This document shows positions 4,615 to 33,235 of a DNA stretch of 47,425 nucleotides, piece by piece. The position numbers and the translations under genes were made by a program. Origin of the DNA: a bacterium (GTDB lineage Bacteria > T1Sed10-126); the NCBI GenBank assembly GCA_003554945.1, contig PWHN01000086.1:1-47425 (forward strand), read 5' to 3'. The notes under the pieces were generated by a model, which ran no database searches, was not told the DNA's origin, and saw only the letters and a program-made list of their open reading frames with translations. Numbering within the stretch: the first letter of the stretch is position 1; the number at the start of each line of letters is the position of its first letter.

Positions 4615-5604
4615 TTAGAAAAGATAAAACCAACCCAAAACAGCAATAAATAAGAAAAAAATAACAAGAACCACTATTCCGAGAGCCATTTTAGTCTCTT
4701 CGCTGAGTCCGAACCCGCGCGAACCCCGCGCTCTCTTTTCCGCAGTTTCATCGGGCACCAGGATACTGACATCTCGTCCGCAGCTTCCTTTTCCAACCAC
4801 GTCCGAAGTGATTTCAAGGGTCAGTTCAACTTTTCGCGAACCGGTGGATTTTCCTGAAATTAACTTTGCCGGGAACAACTCTTTTTCTCCGGTTGTTTTC
4901 TTTTCGATTTCGCGCAGAGCTTCCCTGACTTCAATTTTATCTTTCATGGCGGTTGGAATGTCGTCAACCCGAGCATAAATAGTATCACCTTTCTTCAACT
5001 TGCCGAACGAAATCCCTTTCACCGGGTTAATAGGAATTTCACAGGGGATATAGAGCTGATCCTCTTCGGATTGGTCCGAACTCTCACTATCGTCAACTCT
5101 GTCAATTTTACGTCGGAGGGTATAATGTACTTCGTTGTTGGTGAGATCAAAACCGAGGGTGTCTGCGACTATAGTTCTCATCACCGGCGGTATTTTGTCG
5201 TATTCCTGATCTTTTAAGGCCTCAACAACTTTAGAACTTTTATCCTCGAGCAATTCTTTCAGGCGGGAATTAAGCTTGTTCATCGGACCACTGAGTTTAT
5301 CCGAAGAACGTTTTGCTTTTTGAAGATTTTTCTTGAAGGCTTTGGGGGATAACCTGGGTGAGGTTCCTTCGGTTTTTTTGGAGAGAACAACCACGTCAGT
5401 ATCGTTTAATCGACTGCGGGCAGCATTCCAGTCAAAATACCAGAGACCGCTGCGACCGCTGGCCTGAAATCGGCCCTTCAGACAGACCGAAACCGGCTGC
5501 AGCAACTTTTTTGCACGTTTAGCATCTCCCCCGGCTTCCTCCCAGGCAGCCGCGGCCAGCTCCGAATTAACTGACTGTTTTTTGATGAATTTCTTTTTAT
5601 TCAA
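4615..5604 (-). CDS. tail-anchored membrane protein of unknown function
   Basis: The 329-aa product has no recognised family. It is basic and hydrophilic for about 300 residues, with a charged helical stretch around 100-135. A beta-rich region follows (about 185-285; IPCEIPINPVKGISFGKL, then GDTIYARVDDIP). A single hydrophobic helix closes the chain (about 307-329, ALGIVVLVIFFLFIAVLGWF). No signal peptide is seen, so the bulk probably faces the cytoplasm. The start is TTG with GGGGA just upstream. The plus-strand protein at 31149-32171 has the same plan (IPFKGVAPKSL, DEIYVRAL, C-terminal helix), suggesting distant paralogy. It lies 88 bases downstream of the YdjM-like gene. Confidence 0.75.
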   Translation of the reverse strand: MNKKKFIKKQSVNSELAAAAWEEAGGDAKRAKKLLQPVSVCLKGRFQASGRSGLWYFDWNAARSRLNDTDVVVLSKKTEGTSPRLSPKAFKKNLQKAKRSSDKLSGPMNKLNSRLKELLEDKSSKVVEALKDQEYDKIPPVMRTIVADTLGFDLTNNEVHYTLRRKIDRVDDSESSDQSEEDQLYIPCEIPINPVKGISFGKLKKGDTIYARVDDIPTAMKDKIEVREALREIEKKTTGEKELFPAKLISGKSTGSRKVELTLEITSDVVGKGSCGRDVSILVPDETAEKRARGSRGFGLSEETKMALGIVVLVIFFLFIAVLGWFYLF

Positions 5605-5692: not shown

Positions 5693-6820
5693 TCAGTCCA
5701 GAACCGGCTCACCCGAGCCATCGGGAGCCTCTTCAATACTGCGGCCGTGAGTTTTGCGGATATTTTTCTTTATTTCTCCGATCATCCAGAAATAAGCCCC
5801 CATCGGTATCACGATAAATAACAGCACAGAGAGCCACCAGTTAATTGGAATAAGTTGAGTAGAAAAATAATCTAAATTCAAAATAATCAGGACTACGGCG
5901 GTATAATCGATAGAAAAGTTGGTTCGCGGGTCGCTGGCGCTGAACAGCTCCAGACCTTCCGTACGTGGAGTAAAAAGAGGCCAGAGTAGCGAACCACCGA
6001 TGTGACCGGTCATATCTTCGGTCAGGTGGACCCAGAAACCGAGAATAGAGACTACACCATAGAGCCACCAGTTGGTCATATTGAGCAGAAAAGGAATGAC
6101 AAATGCAGGAATGGCCAGGAGAGCTCCCAGGACATAGCTGTGACTCCATGTCCTGTGCCAGGGCAGCCAGTTGAGATATACTTTGCCATCCGATTCCTTC
6201 TGGAAAGCAAACTGGGTCCCGCTTAAAATATCGAGGGTGGACGGCTTCATACCGCTGCCCTTTTTGTCCGGCCCCTTAATTTTCTGCCGTGTCCAGCGAA
6301 TCAACTTATTAAGCCAGTCCAGATCGGTAGTTCTGCCCTTCAGGGTCGCTTCCTTTAACTTTGCTCTCCCGACTCTTTCAAATTCAGGTTCAGTGTTCGG
6401 GATCGGGAGCTGGGAGGTGGTAACAACGTCGTCAAACTGAATAGTGACTTCGTCCTCGTCAAACAGGACATGGTAGCGTCGCCATTCGTTTGCACCAAGC
6501 TGTATCGGGTAAAACTGGACTCGAATTTCTTCACCCGAACGGTGGGCAGTATCTATAGCTTCAGCGAGCGTTTCTGCCATTTCTTGGGCGTCGGGATTTT
6601 CGGGATGGGGGTCAATTTGATAATCGGCAACAGAAAAAAACTGTCCGAGTTTAAAATCCATGGTATCAGGCATAACGGCATACAAACCGGCCAGACAGAT
6701 TATAAAAGAGTTTGATACAGCGCCGCCGGCGTCGGCACGGCTGGCCGCCGACATCCTTACAACTTCCGGTATAAATGTTGCAGCAGCGACTCCAGAGATA
6801 AAGTGCGTCAAACCTTTCAT
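5693..6820 (-). CDS. YdjM/DUF457-like inner-membrane protein with a long insert
   Basis: The 375-aa product resembles the LexA-regulated YdjM (DUF457) membrane proteins, annotated as putative metal-dependent hydrolases. Their polar signatures are present: an N-terminal THFISG, MPDTMDF at about 49-55, HRTWSHS at about 223-229, and HLTEDMTGH with SLLWP at about 266-285. Four or more hydrophobic helices follow the HRTWSHS motif. Between the N-terminal part and HRTWSHS lies a hydrophilic stretch of roughly 150 residues that I do not recognise; E. coli YdjM is only about 200 residues long. The start is supported by AAGGTG eight bases upstream. Function is unproven for the family. Confidence 0.65.
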   Translation of the reverse strand: MKGLTHFISGVAAATFIPEVVRMSAASRADAGGAVSNSFIICLAGLYAVMPDTMDFKLGQFFSVADYQIDPHPENPDAQEMAETLAEAIDTAHRSGEEIRVQFYPIQLGANEWRRYHVLFDEDEVTIQFDDVVTTSQLPIPNTEPEFERVGRAKLKEATLKGRTTDLDWLNKLIRWTRQKIKGPDKKGSGMKPSTLDILSGTQFAFQKESDGKVYLNWLPWHRTWSHSYVLGALLAIPAFVIPFLLNMTNWWLYGVVSILGFWVHLTEDMTGHIGGSLLWPLFTPRTEGLELFSASDPRTNFSIDYTAVVLIILNLDYFSTQLIPINWWLSVLLFIVIPMGAYFWMIGEIKKNIRKTHGRSIEEAPDGSGEPVLD

Positions 6821-6848: not shown

Positions 6849-6922
6849 TCAGAGTATACAAAATCTTTCCCCCTCACCCTGGCCCTCTCCCTCCAGGGGA
6901 GAGGGGATAGATGAGTAGTTAC
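6849..6922. repeat. GTAACTACTC-type MITE, left end decayed
   Basis: The right end (GATAGATGAGTAGTTAC, ending at 6922) and the core (CCCTCACCCTGGCC, then a CCCTCTCCC/GGGGAGAGGG stem) match the repeat family described at 36191-36252. The outer 12 or so bases of the left end are altered, and no flanking duplication can be seen. It sits between the TctA-like gene and the YdjM-like gene and would be transcribed between them. Confidence 0.6.
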
Positions 6923-6963: not shown

Positions 6964-8388
6964 TTAAACCAGCCCCAACATTTGTCCGATCAAATCACCG
7001 TAACCGGCCATGTTAAGTGCTATTGGCACGAGAAGCACGGCCATACAGTGGCTACGCCGACAGTTGAAGAATACTGGAACCATTCCGATAATTGTCGTTA
7101 TCGCCGTAATAATAAGTCCCGGTATGCCGGTCATGAAATAAATTATTACGGTTACCACAATCAGTGCAAAATAATGAAGCATCGCGGCGTCAAAGTTATG
7201 AATATATTTAATACAGAGCTTGGTAACCAGGTAAAGCATAAAGAAAGAAATTGCGGCACTGAAGAGAATAGTTCCGCTAATTAGCCAGTAATCACCAGGC
7301 TCAGGTGAAAAAGCCGGCCGTAGAATAAAGTTTAATCCACCACGACCCATCCCCCCGGGGGTCATGTCGGTTATGACAAAAAGAAGCAAGAAAGCACCGA
7401 CGTAGTAAAATATTTTGCCAACGCCGCCGGAAATAAGAAAGTTTCTCTCCTGGCGGTAATACATCTCAGGCATCACGTAATCAATAGCTAGGTCAGAATC
7501 CTCGGGCGGGTCTTCCATTTTGGGTTTGTCCAGCGCCTGGTGGTTGGTGGCATGACCGGCGAAAAGGGCCCCTATCCCCGCGGTAACAGCGGGCAAATAA
7601 GCAGCCATAAGCCCACCTACAACACCAACACCGCTCCCGTAGCCGAAATCTTTCCAGTCGGCATTGATTTGTTTTGAATCGTATTGTTTTGGCACGTCGT
7701 AGTCGGCAATTAAGCTCTGTATGATCGAAGGGAAAGCGAAAAAACCGACAAAGACGGGCATAATGTTTTGAAAGGCGGCTTCGATTGGAATAATGCTCTG
7801 GGTGGTAAAGATTAAGCCAAACATCGCCGAGGCTGTGAAAGTAAAAAGTCCGGCAAAAACATTTCGCCAGGCGTCCTTAAATTTTGTCCAGGGGTGGGTG
7901 CCCCGACCGGCTCCTTTGGGCCACTCACTCATTATGTAAAAGACCATGACCACGCCCAGAGCCCAGTGGAGATGAGCTCCGACAATTTCGTAAATATAAG
8001 GCCAGATAACGTAGAAAAAAGGAGTTAACAGTATCAGAAGCAGGGCGCCAATTAACGTTCCTATGCCGGTAAGAAGGGAGGCGTCTTTGCCCTTACCCTG
8101 GGAGACCATGGCCGCCGAGGGAAGCAGGGTCGCTCCCGCTGATTCGTCAAATGCACCAAGAAAAGTCATGGGAATTGTATTCATAAAAGAAAAGGCCACT
8201 ACCATGGACATAAAAAACGGTGCAAGAGCGTAGTAAGGTATTAATGACCGAACGCCTAGCCACATCACGAAGGCGACCCCGGCAAGATTGTAGATGTGTA
8301 GAGATGGGATGGAACAAAAAACTGATCCAATTAGCGTACCAAGCAGAGAATAACCAATTATCACTGATGGCCGGTATAAAAAATCCAT
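6964..8388 (-). CDS. TctA-family (COG1784-like) multispanning permease
   Basis: A very hydrophobic 474-aa protein with about ten or more membrane helices. It resembles the TctA/DUF112 group, especially the stand-alone COG1784 branch: an early IPSLHIYNLAGV segment, the GAFDESAGATLLPSAAM loop, and a second-half repeat ending RRSHCMAVLLVPIALNMAG. Classical TctA works with TctB and a periplasmic TctC to import carboxylates; neither partner is present, so the substrate is unknown. I place the start at ATG 8388, eight bases after AGGAAG, rather than the GTG at 8397 that abuts that site. It follows the two zinc-ribbon/OB genes by 35 bases and is very likely in their operon. Confidence 0.7.
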   Translation of the reverse strand: MDFLYRPSVIIGYSLLGTLIGSVFCSIPSLHIYNLAGVAFVMWLGVRSLIPYYALAPFFMSMVVAFSFMNTIPMTFLGAFDESAGATLLPSAAMVSQGKGKDASLLTGIGTLIGALLLILLTPFFYVIWPYIYEIVGAHLHWALGVVMVFYIMSEWPKGAGRGTHPWTKFKDAWRNVFAGLFTFTASAMFGLIFTTQSIIPIEAAFQNIMPVFVGFFAFPSIIQSLIADYDVPKQYDSKQINADWKDFGYGSGVGVVGGLMAAYLPAVTAGIGALFAGHATNHQALDKPKMEDPPEDSDLAIDYVMPEMYYRQERNFLISGGVGKIFYYVGAFLLLFVITDMTPGGMGRGGLNFILRPAFSPEPGDYWLISGTILFSAAISFFMLYLVTKLCIKYIHNFDAAMLHYFALIVVTVIIYFMTGIPGLIITAITTIIGMVPVFFNCRRSHCMAVLLVPIALNMAGYGDLIGQMLGLV

Positions 8389-8423
8389 TACCCACACTTC
8401 CTGTTATTAGGGTTTATCATATG

Positions 8424-9434
8424 TCACTGGACCTCTCGAATTGTGTCCGGGTCGTCCGGGTTGGCAAGATCAAGCTGGGGATTACCACGAAATTCACCCA
8501 CCTGGGCCAAAATATCAACAGTCGTTCCCGGTGTAGTCAGCAAATTTTGTTTTTCCTCAGGCAAATCATCAAAAATAAAATCGGGAACGGTCAAATCAAT
8601 TCTCACTCCCCGGTCCTCAAGTTCAATTACTCTTAGTTGACCGGGTCTTGAAATCTCCCCTATTGTCCCACTGACCCAGTAATATTCACCAATATCTGCA
8701 CTGCCTATAGCGGCAATTTCACGGCGCTGTTCTTCAAATGACTCAATAACTCTGAACCGCTGCGGTAAGCTGAGATACATCTGTGCGCCCCACTGCGAGT
8801 CAAGGTCAAGCGAGCCGATAATTTCTACCCGATCAAATAAGTTCGGGGGGAATTTTCCCCCTAACTGCTCGCGAAAGTCACTCAGGGCATTGAAGCCACG
8901 CACCCGTATGTCATCGTCTCCGTCAGTAATTCTTAGCATGAAATGGTCGTCGGCTTCCTGCAGTTCAACCTCGGACACCCGTCCAACTATACGGGCCGGA
9001 GTAACAGAAATTGAAAAGTCACCCGACTCTTCGTCCGGCTCCTGGTAGTCAACCTGACCAGGATAGAGAACATAGCGGCGAATTCTACGGAACGCGTCGT
9101 TCAAAACCCGAGCCGGATCTTCCAGATCCACCCTGTCCATTATTTCCTCGCGGTGTATTTCCATTGTAGCTCCAATTTCAAACTCGGCCGGGGCAGTGAT
9201 AAAAGAGGCGGTTCCCAGAAACAAAAGTCCAATTATGATGGTCGCGAAGGCGATTTTATTAATAAGTCCCAGGGAAATGCTTTTTGTTATCCGGGCGCCA
9301 CAGGTAGGACAGGTTAAATATCCTTCCGCCTGGTCTCCACAGGTAGGACACTCCCAGTAATAAGCCTCGTCTTCTTCCCCTATTTCTCCGTGGGCAGAAT
9401 ATTCAGTTGTCTCCTCACCGTTTAATTCAACCAT
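8424..9434 (-). CDS. zinc-ribbon, single-TM, OB-fold-like protein (paralogue 1)
   Basis: The 336-aa product has an acidic start and a zinc ribbon with two CPxC-type knuckles (C29, C32, C42, C45). One membrane helix follows (about 55-78), then a long beta-rich region. That region contains two similar modules, ARIVGRVSEVELQEADDHFMLRI...(about 147) and YWVSGTIGEISRPGQLRVIELED...(about 252). Each looks like an OB fold of the tRNA-anti/nucleic-acid-binding or periplasmic type. It aligns with the next gene upstream (9495-10343) along most of its length: KFPPNLFDRVEII and EFPPNNFDRIEVI, QFR/QWFRI, VPDFIFDDL and VPDFLYEDM. It carries about 60 extra residues after the helix. The ligand is unknown. Confidence 0.75.
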   Translation of the reverse strand: MVELNGEETTEYSAHGEIGEEDEAYYWECPTCGDQAEGYLTCPTCGARITKSISLGLINKIAFATIIIGLLFLGTASFITAPAEFEIGATMEIHREEIMDRVDLEDPARVLNDAFRRIRRYVLYPGQVDYQEPDEESGDFSISVTPARIVGRVSEVELQEADDHFMLRITDGDDDIRVRGFNALSDFREQLGGKFPPNLFDRVEIIGSLDLDSQWGAQMYLSLPQRFRVIESFEEQRREIAAIGSADIGEYYWVSGTIGEISRPGQLRVIELEDRGVRIDLTVPDFIFDDLPEEKQNLLTTPGTTVDILAQVGEFRGNPQLDLANPDDPDTIREVQ

Positions 9435-9494
9435 CTGATTTCAATCCTATCTGAATCAATTGCTCAAAAACACTAATCAATTTGCTGCGTCCCA

Positions 9495-10343
9495 TTAGTT
9501 ACCAACCACCAGTATAGCGTCGGTACTGGCCAGATCGAGCTGAAGTTCGTCTCGAAACTCGCCCACTTCAACAACAGTTTTAACCCTTTGTCCCGGCGAA
9601 ACAAGCGCTCTTTGAACATCTGACGCCATATCCTCGTATAGAAAATCCGGGACGACAAGGTCAAGCTCACCCGTCCCATCGTTCAAGGTAATTAAACGTA
9701 TCCCGCCCGGACGCTCGATTCCCATAACCTGCGCCTCAACGACATGATTTTCGCCAATATTGTCGTGGCTTAAATTGCCGATTGACACCGTTTCCCGCTC
9801 ATGCCAGCGTTCAAGTATTCTGAACCACTGCGGAGTGCGAAGAAACATGGAGGCGCCAAACCGGGGATCAATATTAATCTGACTTATTACTTCTATGCGA
9901 TCAAAATTATTGGGTGGAAACTCTCCCTCAAAATACTGCCTGAAAGTTTCTAACATGTTAAAACCAAGCAGGTCTATGTCATCGCCCGCCTGGGAGAGAG
10001 TCATAATGAAGCGATCTTCCCCTTCGTCGACGTTGACTTCTGTAACATCACCGGTAATTCTTACAAGGGCGCCGTTCATGGCCTCGTTAACTTCAGCGAT
10101 TTCTACGCTGGGAATCTCGTGCACGTAGCGCGTATACCCCCAGAGGAATATGACGCCGATAATCGAGCCAATTATTGCTATAGTTTTGATTAAGAAAAGA
10201 GGATTGCTTTTTGTAACACGTTCACCACACCGAGGACAGGAAAGGAGACCTCCAACATGGTAACCACAGGAAGGACAGTTGGCTCCTTTTTGCTTCTTTT
10301 TTTCTAATTCATCGGGGGAACTGTCAGTCGCTTCTTCGGCCAT
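9495..10343 (-). CDS. zinc-ribbon, single-TM, OB-fold-like protein (paralogue 2)
   Basis: The 282-aa product is a shorter paralogue of the protein at 8424-9434. It has a zinc ribbon (C23, C26, C36, C39), a membrane helix (about 50-70), and two OB-like modules beginning LVRITGDVTEVNVDEGEDRFIMTL (about 92) and VVEAQVMGIERPGGIRLITL (about 206). It ends with GEFRDELQLDLAS, matching GEFRGNPQLDLAN in its partner. It is first in a three-gene operon (this gene, paralogue 1, TctA-like permease) with gaps of 60 and 35 bases. The start is ATG with GGGAG seven bases upstream, behind a good promoter at 10463-10491. The tandem duplication suggests the two proteins work together. Confidence 0.75.
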   Translation of the reverse strand: MAEEATDSSPDELEKKKQKGANCPSCGYHVGGLLSCPRCGERVTKSNPLFLIKTIAIIGSIIGVIFLWGYTRYVHEIPSVEIAEVNEAMNGALVRITGDVTEVNVDEGEDRFIMTLSQAGDDIDLLGFNMLETFRQYFEGEFPPNNFDRIEVISQINIDPRFGASMFLRTPQWFRILERWHERETVSIGNLSHDNIGENHVVEAQVMGIERPGGIRLITLNDGTGELDLVVPDFLYEDMASDVQRALVSPGQRVKTVVEVGEFRDELQLDLASTDAILVVGN

Positions 10344-10462
10344 TTAATTGCTCCCATTTTATGATTGACAACTTTAATAACCCAGGAACTCCCTGAACGG
10401 GAAACAGAACTAAATTCTATTAAAACCGATCATCAGAAATAAAGCTCTTCTGCTTTGCTATC

Positions 10463-10491
10463 ATAATACATGTTACAATCCCCTGCGTCAA
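10463..10491 (-). promoter_or_regulatory. sigma-70-type promoter for the zinc-ribbon/OB/TctA operon
   Basis: On the minus strand, TTGACG (10491-10486) is followed after exactly 17 bases by TATTAT (10468-10463). Both hexamers match the consensus at five of six positions. Transcription would start near 10456, giving a leader of about 113 bases before the ATG at 10343. Only a weak small hairpin is visible in that leader. Confidence 0.65.
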
Positions 10492-33089: not shown

Positions 33090-33235
33090 CCCCTCAAAAA
33101 TCTCCTCCCCCCCGGAGGGGGAGGATTAAGGTGGGGGGATAGTGAATTTTTCTGTAACTACTTATCTATCCCTCTCCCACGGAGGGAGAGGACCAGATCA
33201 CCCCCCCTTTGTCTTTCCCCCCTTCAAGGGGGGAA
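33090..33235. repeat. partial MITE and adjacent GC-rich palindrome
   Basis: In the 304-base gap 33071-33374, a CTCCTCCCCCC/GGAGGGGGAGGA hairpin (about 33102-33125) precedes a MITE left end GTAACTACTTATCTATCC (33154) with its CCCCCTTTGTCTTTCCCCCC/TTCAAGGGGGGAAG core ending near 33235. The right terminus is missing. From 33236 to 33374 there is AT-rich, low-complexity sequence with a short AGCTTTTGGCTTTGAGCTTT stretch and no gene. Confidence 0.55.

Follow-up and report, generated by a model that had tools for sequence, protein, structure and literature searches.

A conserved operon of OB-fold, TctA-like and YdjM-family membrane proteins in bacteria and archaea and its possible role in nucleic-acid import

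Organization of the operon and its predicted products

The DNA analysed here (the window) is the whole stretch of 47,425 nucleotides. On its minus strand, topA is followed by the genes of two zinc-ribbon/OB proteins (ZR1 and ZR2), a TctA-like membrane protein, a YdjM-family membrane protein and a 329-aa protein, and then by a housekeeping cluster that, judged from the open reading frames, resembles rpsF, ssb, rplI, dnaB and radA (Table 1). The coordinates proposed in the initial annotation for both paralogues and for the permease were right according to the open reading frame list, and the two-component set described there was incomplete, as the conserved YdjM-family gene, which comes next on the same strand, had been overlooked. 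The TctA-like gene lies 26 bp from the end of ZR2. The gap between the TctA-like and YdjM genes is 143 bp in the window compared to 12 bp in the sister genome G001, because a dispersed palindrome has been inserted there. This repeat, CCTCTCCCnnnnAGGGAGAGG, occurs a second time in the window at 33171-33191, and its pattern was matched 43 times in the genome while a reversed control pattern was matched 0 times; it is a dispersed REP-like element of the source genome. Directly after the YdjM gene, the protein encoded at 4615-5604 has a C-terminal membrane helix, and a Pfam scan of it returned no family above the cut-off. A 329-aa open reading frame is found at the equivalent place after YdjM in the sister genome (locus L109). 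Upstream of ZR1, the promoter-like site TTGACG-17-TATTAT matches 10 of 12 consensus positions and is the best in the region, so that the site reported as a strong promoter is present; however, since 13 such sites were observed in the region when 6.1 were expected, its strength amounts to a consensus match only.

Table 1. Positions of the operon genes and associated features in the window.
Feature	Coordinates	Strand	Description
ZR1	9495..10343	-	282 aa; four-cysteine zinc ribbon (C23, C26, C36, C39); membrane helix 49-73; OB folds about 93-178 and 199-281
ZR2	8424..9434	-	336 aa; tandem paralogue of ZR1; relative to ZR1, an extra segment after the membrane helix and ahead of the first OB fold
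TctA-like polytopic membrane protein	6964..8397	-	477 aa; YdjM-linked clade
YdjM-family (PF04307) membrane protein	5693..6820	-	375 aa; inserted soluble domain
Sigma-70-like promoter match upstream of ZR1	10463..10491	-	consensus match only
Dispersed palindromic repeat between the TctA-like and YdjM genes	6884..6904	.	

The description of ZR1 and ZR2 as tandem paralogues with a four-cysteine zinc ribbon and a single membrane helix was borne out, as the two proteins are 36% identical across 302 columns (183 bits) and each contains a CxxC...CxxC arrangement and one strong hydrophobic segment. The tandem duplication itself, although present in the window, is not the rule, and most loci carry one OB gene. 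The Pfam OB family (PF01336) scored 24.1 bits in ZR1, below the 27-bit cut-off, and was matched by 20 of 21 OB-protein homologues with a best E of 1e-37. The proposed OB-like modules proved real in the AlphaFold2 model of ZR1 (mean pLDDT 90.5), which contains two OB folds, i.e., two five-stranded barrels with the strands in OB order. The best PDB matches of this model were RPA, HIN and SSB proteins and the anticodon domains of aspartyl- and asparaginyl-tRNA synthetases (Z 11-13 over 87-99 residues), a predicted likeness to nucleic-acid binders that does not prove the ligand. A sequence search for solved relatives of ZR2 gave one weak, unrelated match only. As to topology, 39 of 43 OB proteins followed the positive-inside rule with the zinc ribbon inside, which places the OB folds outside. 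The net charge of the OB regions was neutral on average (median 0), and ZR2 of the window is acidic (-10.7 charges per 100 aa); a basic OB surface was dropped as a sign of DNA binding, since a median net charge of 0 is uninformative. The N-terminal domain of ComEC (DUF4131) was matched weakly by 5 of 21 OB proteins. In another locus (L016, 1699-3183), the zinc-ribbon/OB protein bears an N-terminal GYF_2 domain.

The TctA-like protein scored 94.7 bits against PF01970 (TctA), well above the cut-off of 28.9 and far below the 400-550 bits reached by citrate-type TctA members. Where citrate-type TctA has its two LPGLG half-sites, P[GS][LI]H.[YN]N and PxVT-like motifs are present instead, the first of these replacements being common to the archaeal and window clades, and the substrate motif located at the C-terminus of citrate-type proteins has been lost. 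In a quick tree, supported by SH-aLRT only and including one row (L005) that is probably in the wrong reading frame, the window clade was placed as sister to archaeal COG1784 and apart from citrate-type TctA; the window protein thus belongs to the sister clade and not to COG1784 proper. No TctB-like or TctC receptor-like gene was seen beside the TctA-like gene when the open reading frames of the window were read, no solved relative was found by sequence, and a Pfam scan to E 1 gave PF01970 only, without the ComEC competence domain (PF03772). At the citrate-type TctA loci in our sample, receptor-like and small membrane partners are present, and the TctA-like clade model matched 0 of 19 such loci. 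The view of the protein as TctA/COG1784-type without TctB or TctC therefore held, and its sequence sets the permease apart from citrate-type TctA.

The YdjM-family protein matched PF04307 with 41.9 bits (cut-off 29). Seven residues (H6, D52, D55, H222, H227, H265 and D269) are invariant in 38 YdjM sequences and look like a metal site. Loops predicted to be outer contain on average 0.1-0.3 Lys/Arg, and the soluble domain and the remaining loops contain many; this bias puts the putative site on the predicted cytoplasmic side. No solved relative was found by sequence, and for the structure model (pLDDT 86.8) Foldseek returned 0 PDB matches below E 0.001 and a second structure comparison gave a best Z of 3.5. 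A phospholipase C/P1-nuclease fold, considered as a candidate, is unsupported by these comparisons, which as absent matches do not exclude it. An OB domain (27.9 bits) is inserted in YdjM itself in T. kodakarensis-like genomes; in one Thermococcus-like locus (L222, 1474-2874), this OB domain lies inside the soluble loop. Relatives of YdjM are regulated by LexA and have been suggested as possible phospholipases, an activity that is predicted only (PMC11442139).

Distribution of the gene set in bacteria and archaea

In order to examine conservation, GTDB genomes were scanned with the TctA-like alignment, which found 113 relatives, and 80 loci were kept, from Verrucomicrobiota, Kiritimatiellota, Lentisphaerota, Planctomycetota, Chloroflexota, Elusimicrobiota, Muiribacteriota, Sumerlaeota, Auribacterota and one archaeon. 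At least eight bacterial phyla and some archaea have the genes in the same order, OB, TctA-like, YdjM. Using profile models, an OB gene was found directly upstream in 68 of 76 and a YdjM gene directly downstream in 65 of 79 loci with enough sequence, counts that include loci closely related to each other. Of 386 bacterial genomes sampled separately, 14 encode the TctA-like protein; in usable loci the OB gene was present in 13/14 and YdjM in 13/14, the exception being the divergent locus L167. Neither partner was found beside citrate-type TctA (0/19 loci). The OB, TctA-like and YdjM genes form one conserved set, and the link between permease and OB genes suggested by the initial annotation extends across bacteria and archaea, with co-occurrence being frequent.

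Several groups of loci differ in their surroundings. Two Chloroflexota loci (L102 and L110) have a TctA-like gene without OB or YdjM genes; in each, the next gene encodes an unassigned 140-aa protein, similar in the two loci. In Kiritimatiellales (L090, L080, L088 and relatives), genes for MacB/FtsX, an unknown 430-aa protein, MlaE, MlaF and MlaD stand directly ahead of the operon, with junctions that overlap or leave gaps of about 10-15 bp. In L103, L098, L099, L107 and L112, a LolA-like gene (an assignment tested with Pfam in L103) and two CNNM genes lie directly upstream of a version of the operon with one OB gene. Besides the Mla and LolA/CNNM genes, no neighbour family showed a broad pattern across the loci.

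A TctA-like match was obtained in 171 of 247 genomes from relatives of the archaeon G116. Nine archaeal genomes are of the window type, all nine with the OB gene upstream and YdjM downstream, and the other matches are of the COG1784 type. A single-helix OB gene precedes the TctA-like gene in 16 of the 21 best-scoring COG1784-type loci, and YdjM was present in 0 of these 21. In a lower-scoring set, the models recognised an OB gene in 2 of 20 further archaeal loci, indicating that the archaeal link is frequent and not universal. All nine window-type genomes also hold another TctA-like match, which suggests that the two types probably differ in their job. In the Thermococcales genome G344, which we take to be T. 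kodakarensis KOD1, the full operon is located at 1,836,472-1,842,185 and its OB protein has 992 aa with several OB folds. Genome G356, presumably M. jannaschii, has a stand-alone TctA-like gene.

Archaeal COG1784 genes have been called mostly stand-alone and possible carboxylate transporters, as was suggested for arCOG04469 (PMC5898192). Natural transformation of Methanococcus maripaludis cannot proceed without MMJJ_13020, a single-helix OB protein, or without MMJJ_13030, a TctA-like protein with 11 helices; the TctA-like homologue of Methanoculleus thermophilus is likewise essential, and Fonseca et al. 2023 propose the TctA-like protein as the missing archaeal DNA transporter (PMC10133366). 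The two genes were located in genome G666 through the published transposon insertion coordinates: the OB gene (1,192,953-1,193,564) contains the MMJJ_13020 sites at 1,193,041 and 1,193,088-089, and the TctA gene (1,193,565-1,194,761) contains the MMJJ_13030 site at 1,194,079. The bacterial-clade models scored MMJJ_13020 with 27.8 bits and MMJJ_13030 with 111.9 bits, and because both genes are matched, the window system is, as judged by these models, a homologue in a sister clade of a genetically tested archaeal pair. MMJJ_13020 also matched PF01336 (36.3 bits) and, weakly, DUF4131. The Cys/His-rich end of the M. maripaludis OB protein (L226, 2454-3062; YHTFEDCPYG...CSYC) may bind metal.

Candidate functions

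We infer that the OB, TctA-like and YdjM proteins very probably associate physically as a three-part membrane complex. That this complex imports nucleic acid is quite possible, and for this tentative reading we infer the ligand, the direction of transport, the sidedness and the reaction of YdjM. In the proposed mechanism, the single-helix OB proteins would have their zinc ribbon inside the cell and their OB folds outside, where these would catch a strand, probably single-stranded DNA or RNA; the TctA-like protein would be the translocation pore or carrier that moves the strand across the membrane; and YdjM would be a metal-dependent membrane hydrolase whose cytoplasm-facing site cuts or frees the strand on arrival. 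In the COG1784-type archaeal relatives without YdjM, intact DNA would be delivered for transformation, and the YdjM type would be the scavenging or processing form. Nucleic-acid import is favoured because of the conserved operon, the matches of the OB folds to nucleic-acid binders, the homology to the M. maripaludis pair, the DUF4131 matches, the OB domain inserted in YdjM of T. kodakarensis-like genomes, the replaced citrate motifs and the positive-inside topology of the OB proteins; it is doubted because of the presence of ComEC in all 31 carriers, the second TctA-like match in all nine window-type archaeal genomes, the neutral or acidic OB regions, the missing fold match of YdjM, its predicted sidedness opposite to that of the ComEC nuclease and the links to Mla and LolA genes. 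Of the three ligands considered in the initial annotation (oligosaccharide, lipid or nucleic acid), nucleic acid is now the best supported, and the idea that the OB proteins gate the permease found no support.

The main rival of nucleic-acid import is the handling of envelope lipids, whereby the TctA-like protein would flip or carry an amphiphile, the OB folds would exchange it with envelope carriers and YdjM would hydrolyse the headgroup at the inner leaflet. The position of the Kiritimatiellales operon behind MacB/FtsX, MlaE, MlaF and MlaD, that of a second clade behind LolA-like/CNNM genes and the suggestion that YdjM proteins are phospholipases (PMC11442139) are consistent with it, yet each gene link falls within one related set of genomes and may be a single event, and archaea and Chloroflexota, in which no Mla pathway would be expected, have the system too. 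As DNA uptake in M. maripaludis requires the pair and the structure matches of the OB folds are nucleic-acid binders, we consider lipid handling rather unlikely. An indirect role, in which the OB proteins would be scaffolds for proteins in pilus or surface assembly and the loss of transformation in M. maripaludis would be secondary, agrees with the capacity of OB folds to bind proteins and with their neutral charge, but the fact that a transporter and a hydrolase have repeatedly been inherited together would point to a substrate, and this role appears improbable. Least probable is an orphan carboxylate transporter; membership in PF01970 and the suggestion made for arCOG04469 (PMC5898192) point that way, whereas neither the two PGxG half-sites nor the substrate motif at the C-terminus is retained, the clade model matches 0/19 citrate-type loci, no TctB/TctC neighbour is present, and the OB and YdjM partners would be left unexplained.

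ComEC was found in 36/36 bacterial genomes tested (31 carriers of the operon and 5 non-carriers) and in 0/14 archaea. Replacement of ComEC by the operon in bacteria is ruled out, since 31/31 carriers have ComEC, and because ComEC is so common, co-occurrence excludes only simple replacement. Under the nucleic-acid import reading, the operon might represent a second importer, unrelated to ComEC, that serves salvage or processing and not transformation in little-studied bacteria (including Verrucomicrobiota-type ones) and archaea, an extension that we regard as doubtful.

Relation to known systems

The system is not undescribed as a whole, since an archaeal OB and TctA-like pair was found essential for transformation in 2023, with the need for DNA uptake shown only for archaea (PMC10133366). 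The searched literature contained no account of the three-gene set or of the bacterial branch; the pair itself is already known in archaea. The pair, a candidate for the DNA transporter still sought in competent archaea, belongs to a far wider family with members in many bacterial phyla, and in one branch a putative membrane hydrolase is the constant third partner. These findings correct a carboxylate-transporter annotation, give the uncharacterised YdjM family a defined setting and provide a concrete gene set for tests of the cargo, including one in the genetically tractable Thermococcus. If the import reading is true, many poorly studied bacteria, and some archaea as well, would possess an overlooked machine for nucleic-acid import.

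Compared with TctABC, the PF01970 fold family is common to both, but the window has no TctB or TctC, its substrate motifs are lost and its TctA-like protein forms a separate clade. ComEC/Rec2 resembles the window system, by analogy only, in having an outer OB domain, a polytopic channel and a metal hydrolase, and the OB proteins show the weak DUF4131 matches; in contrast to ComEC, the TctA-like protein lacks PF03772, YdjM is not a metallo-beta-lactamase, and YdjM is predicted to face the cytoplasm whereas the nuclease of ComEC is on the opposite side. The Thermococcales operon has OB protein, TctA-like and YdjM genes in the same order as the window, although its OB protein has no zinc ribbon and its YdjM has an inserted OB domain. 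The M. maripaludis pair differs from the window in the absence of a YdjM gene, in having one OB fold, and in a Cys/His-rich C-terminus of MMJJ_13020 in place of the N-terminal zinc ribbon, with MMJJ_13030 assigned to the COG1784 sister clade and the window protein to the YdjM-linked clade; in both, a single-helix OB gene lies directly upstream of a TctA-like gene that stands without TctB or TctC.
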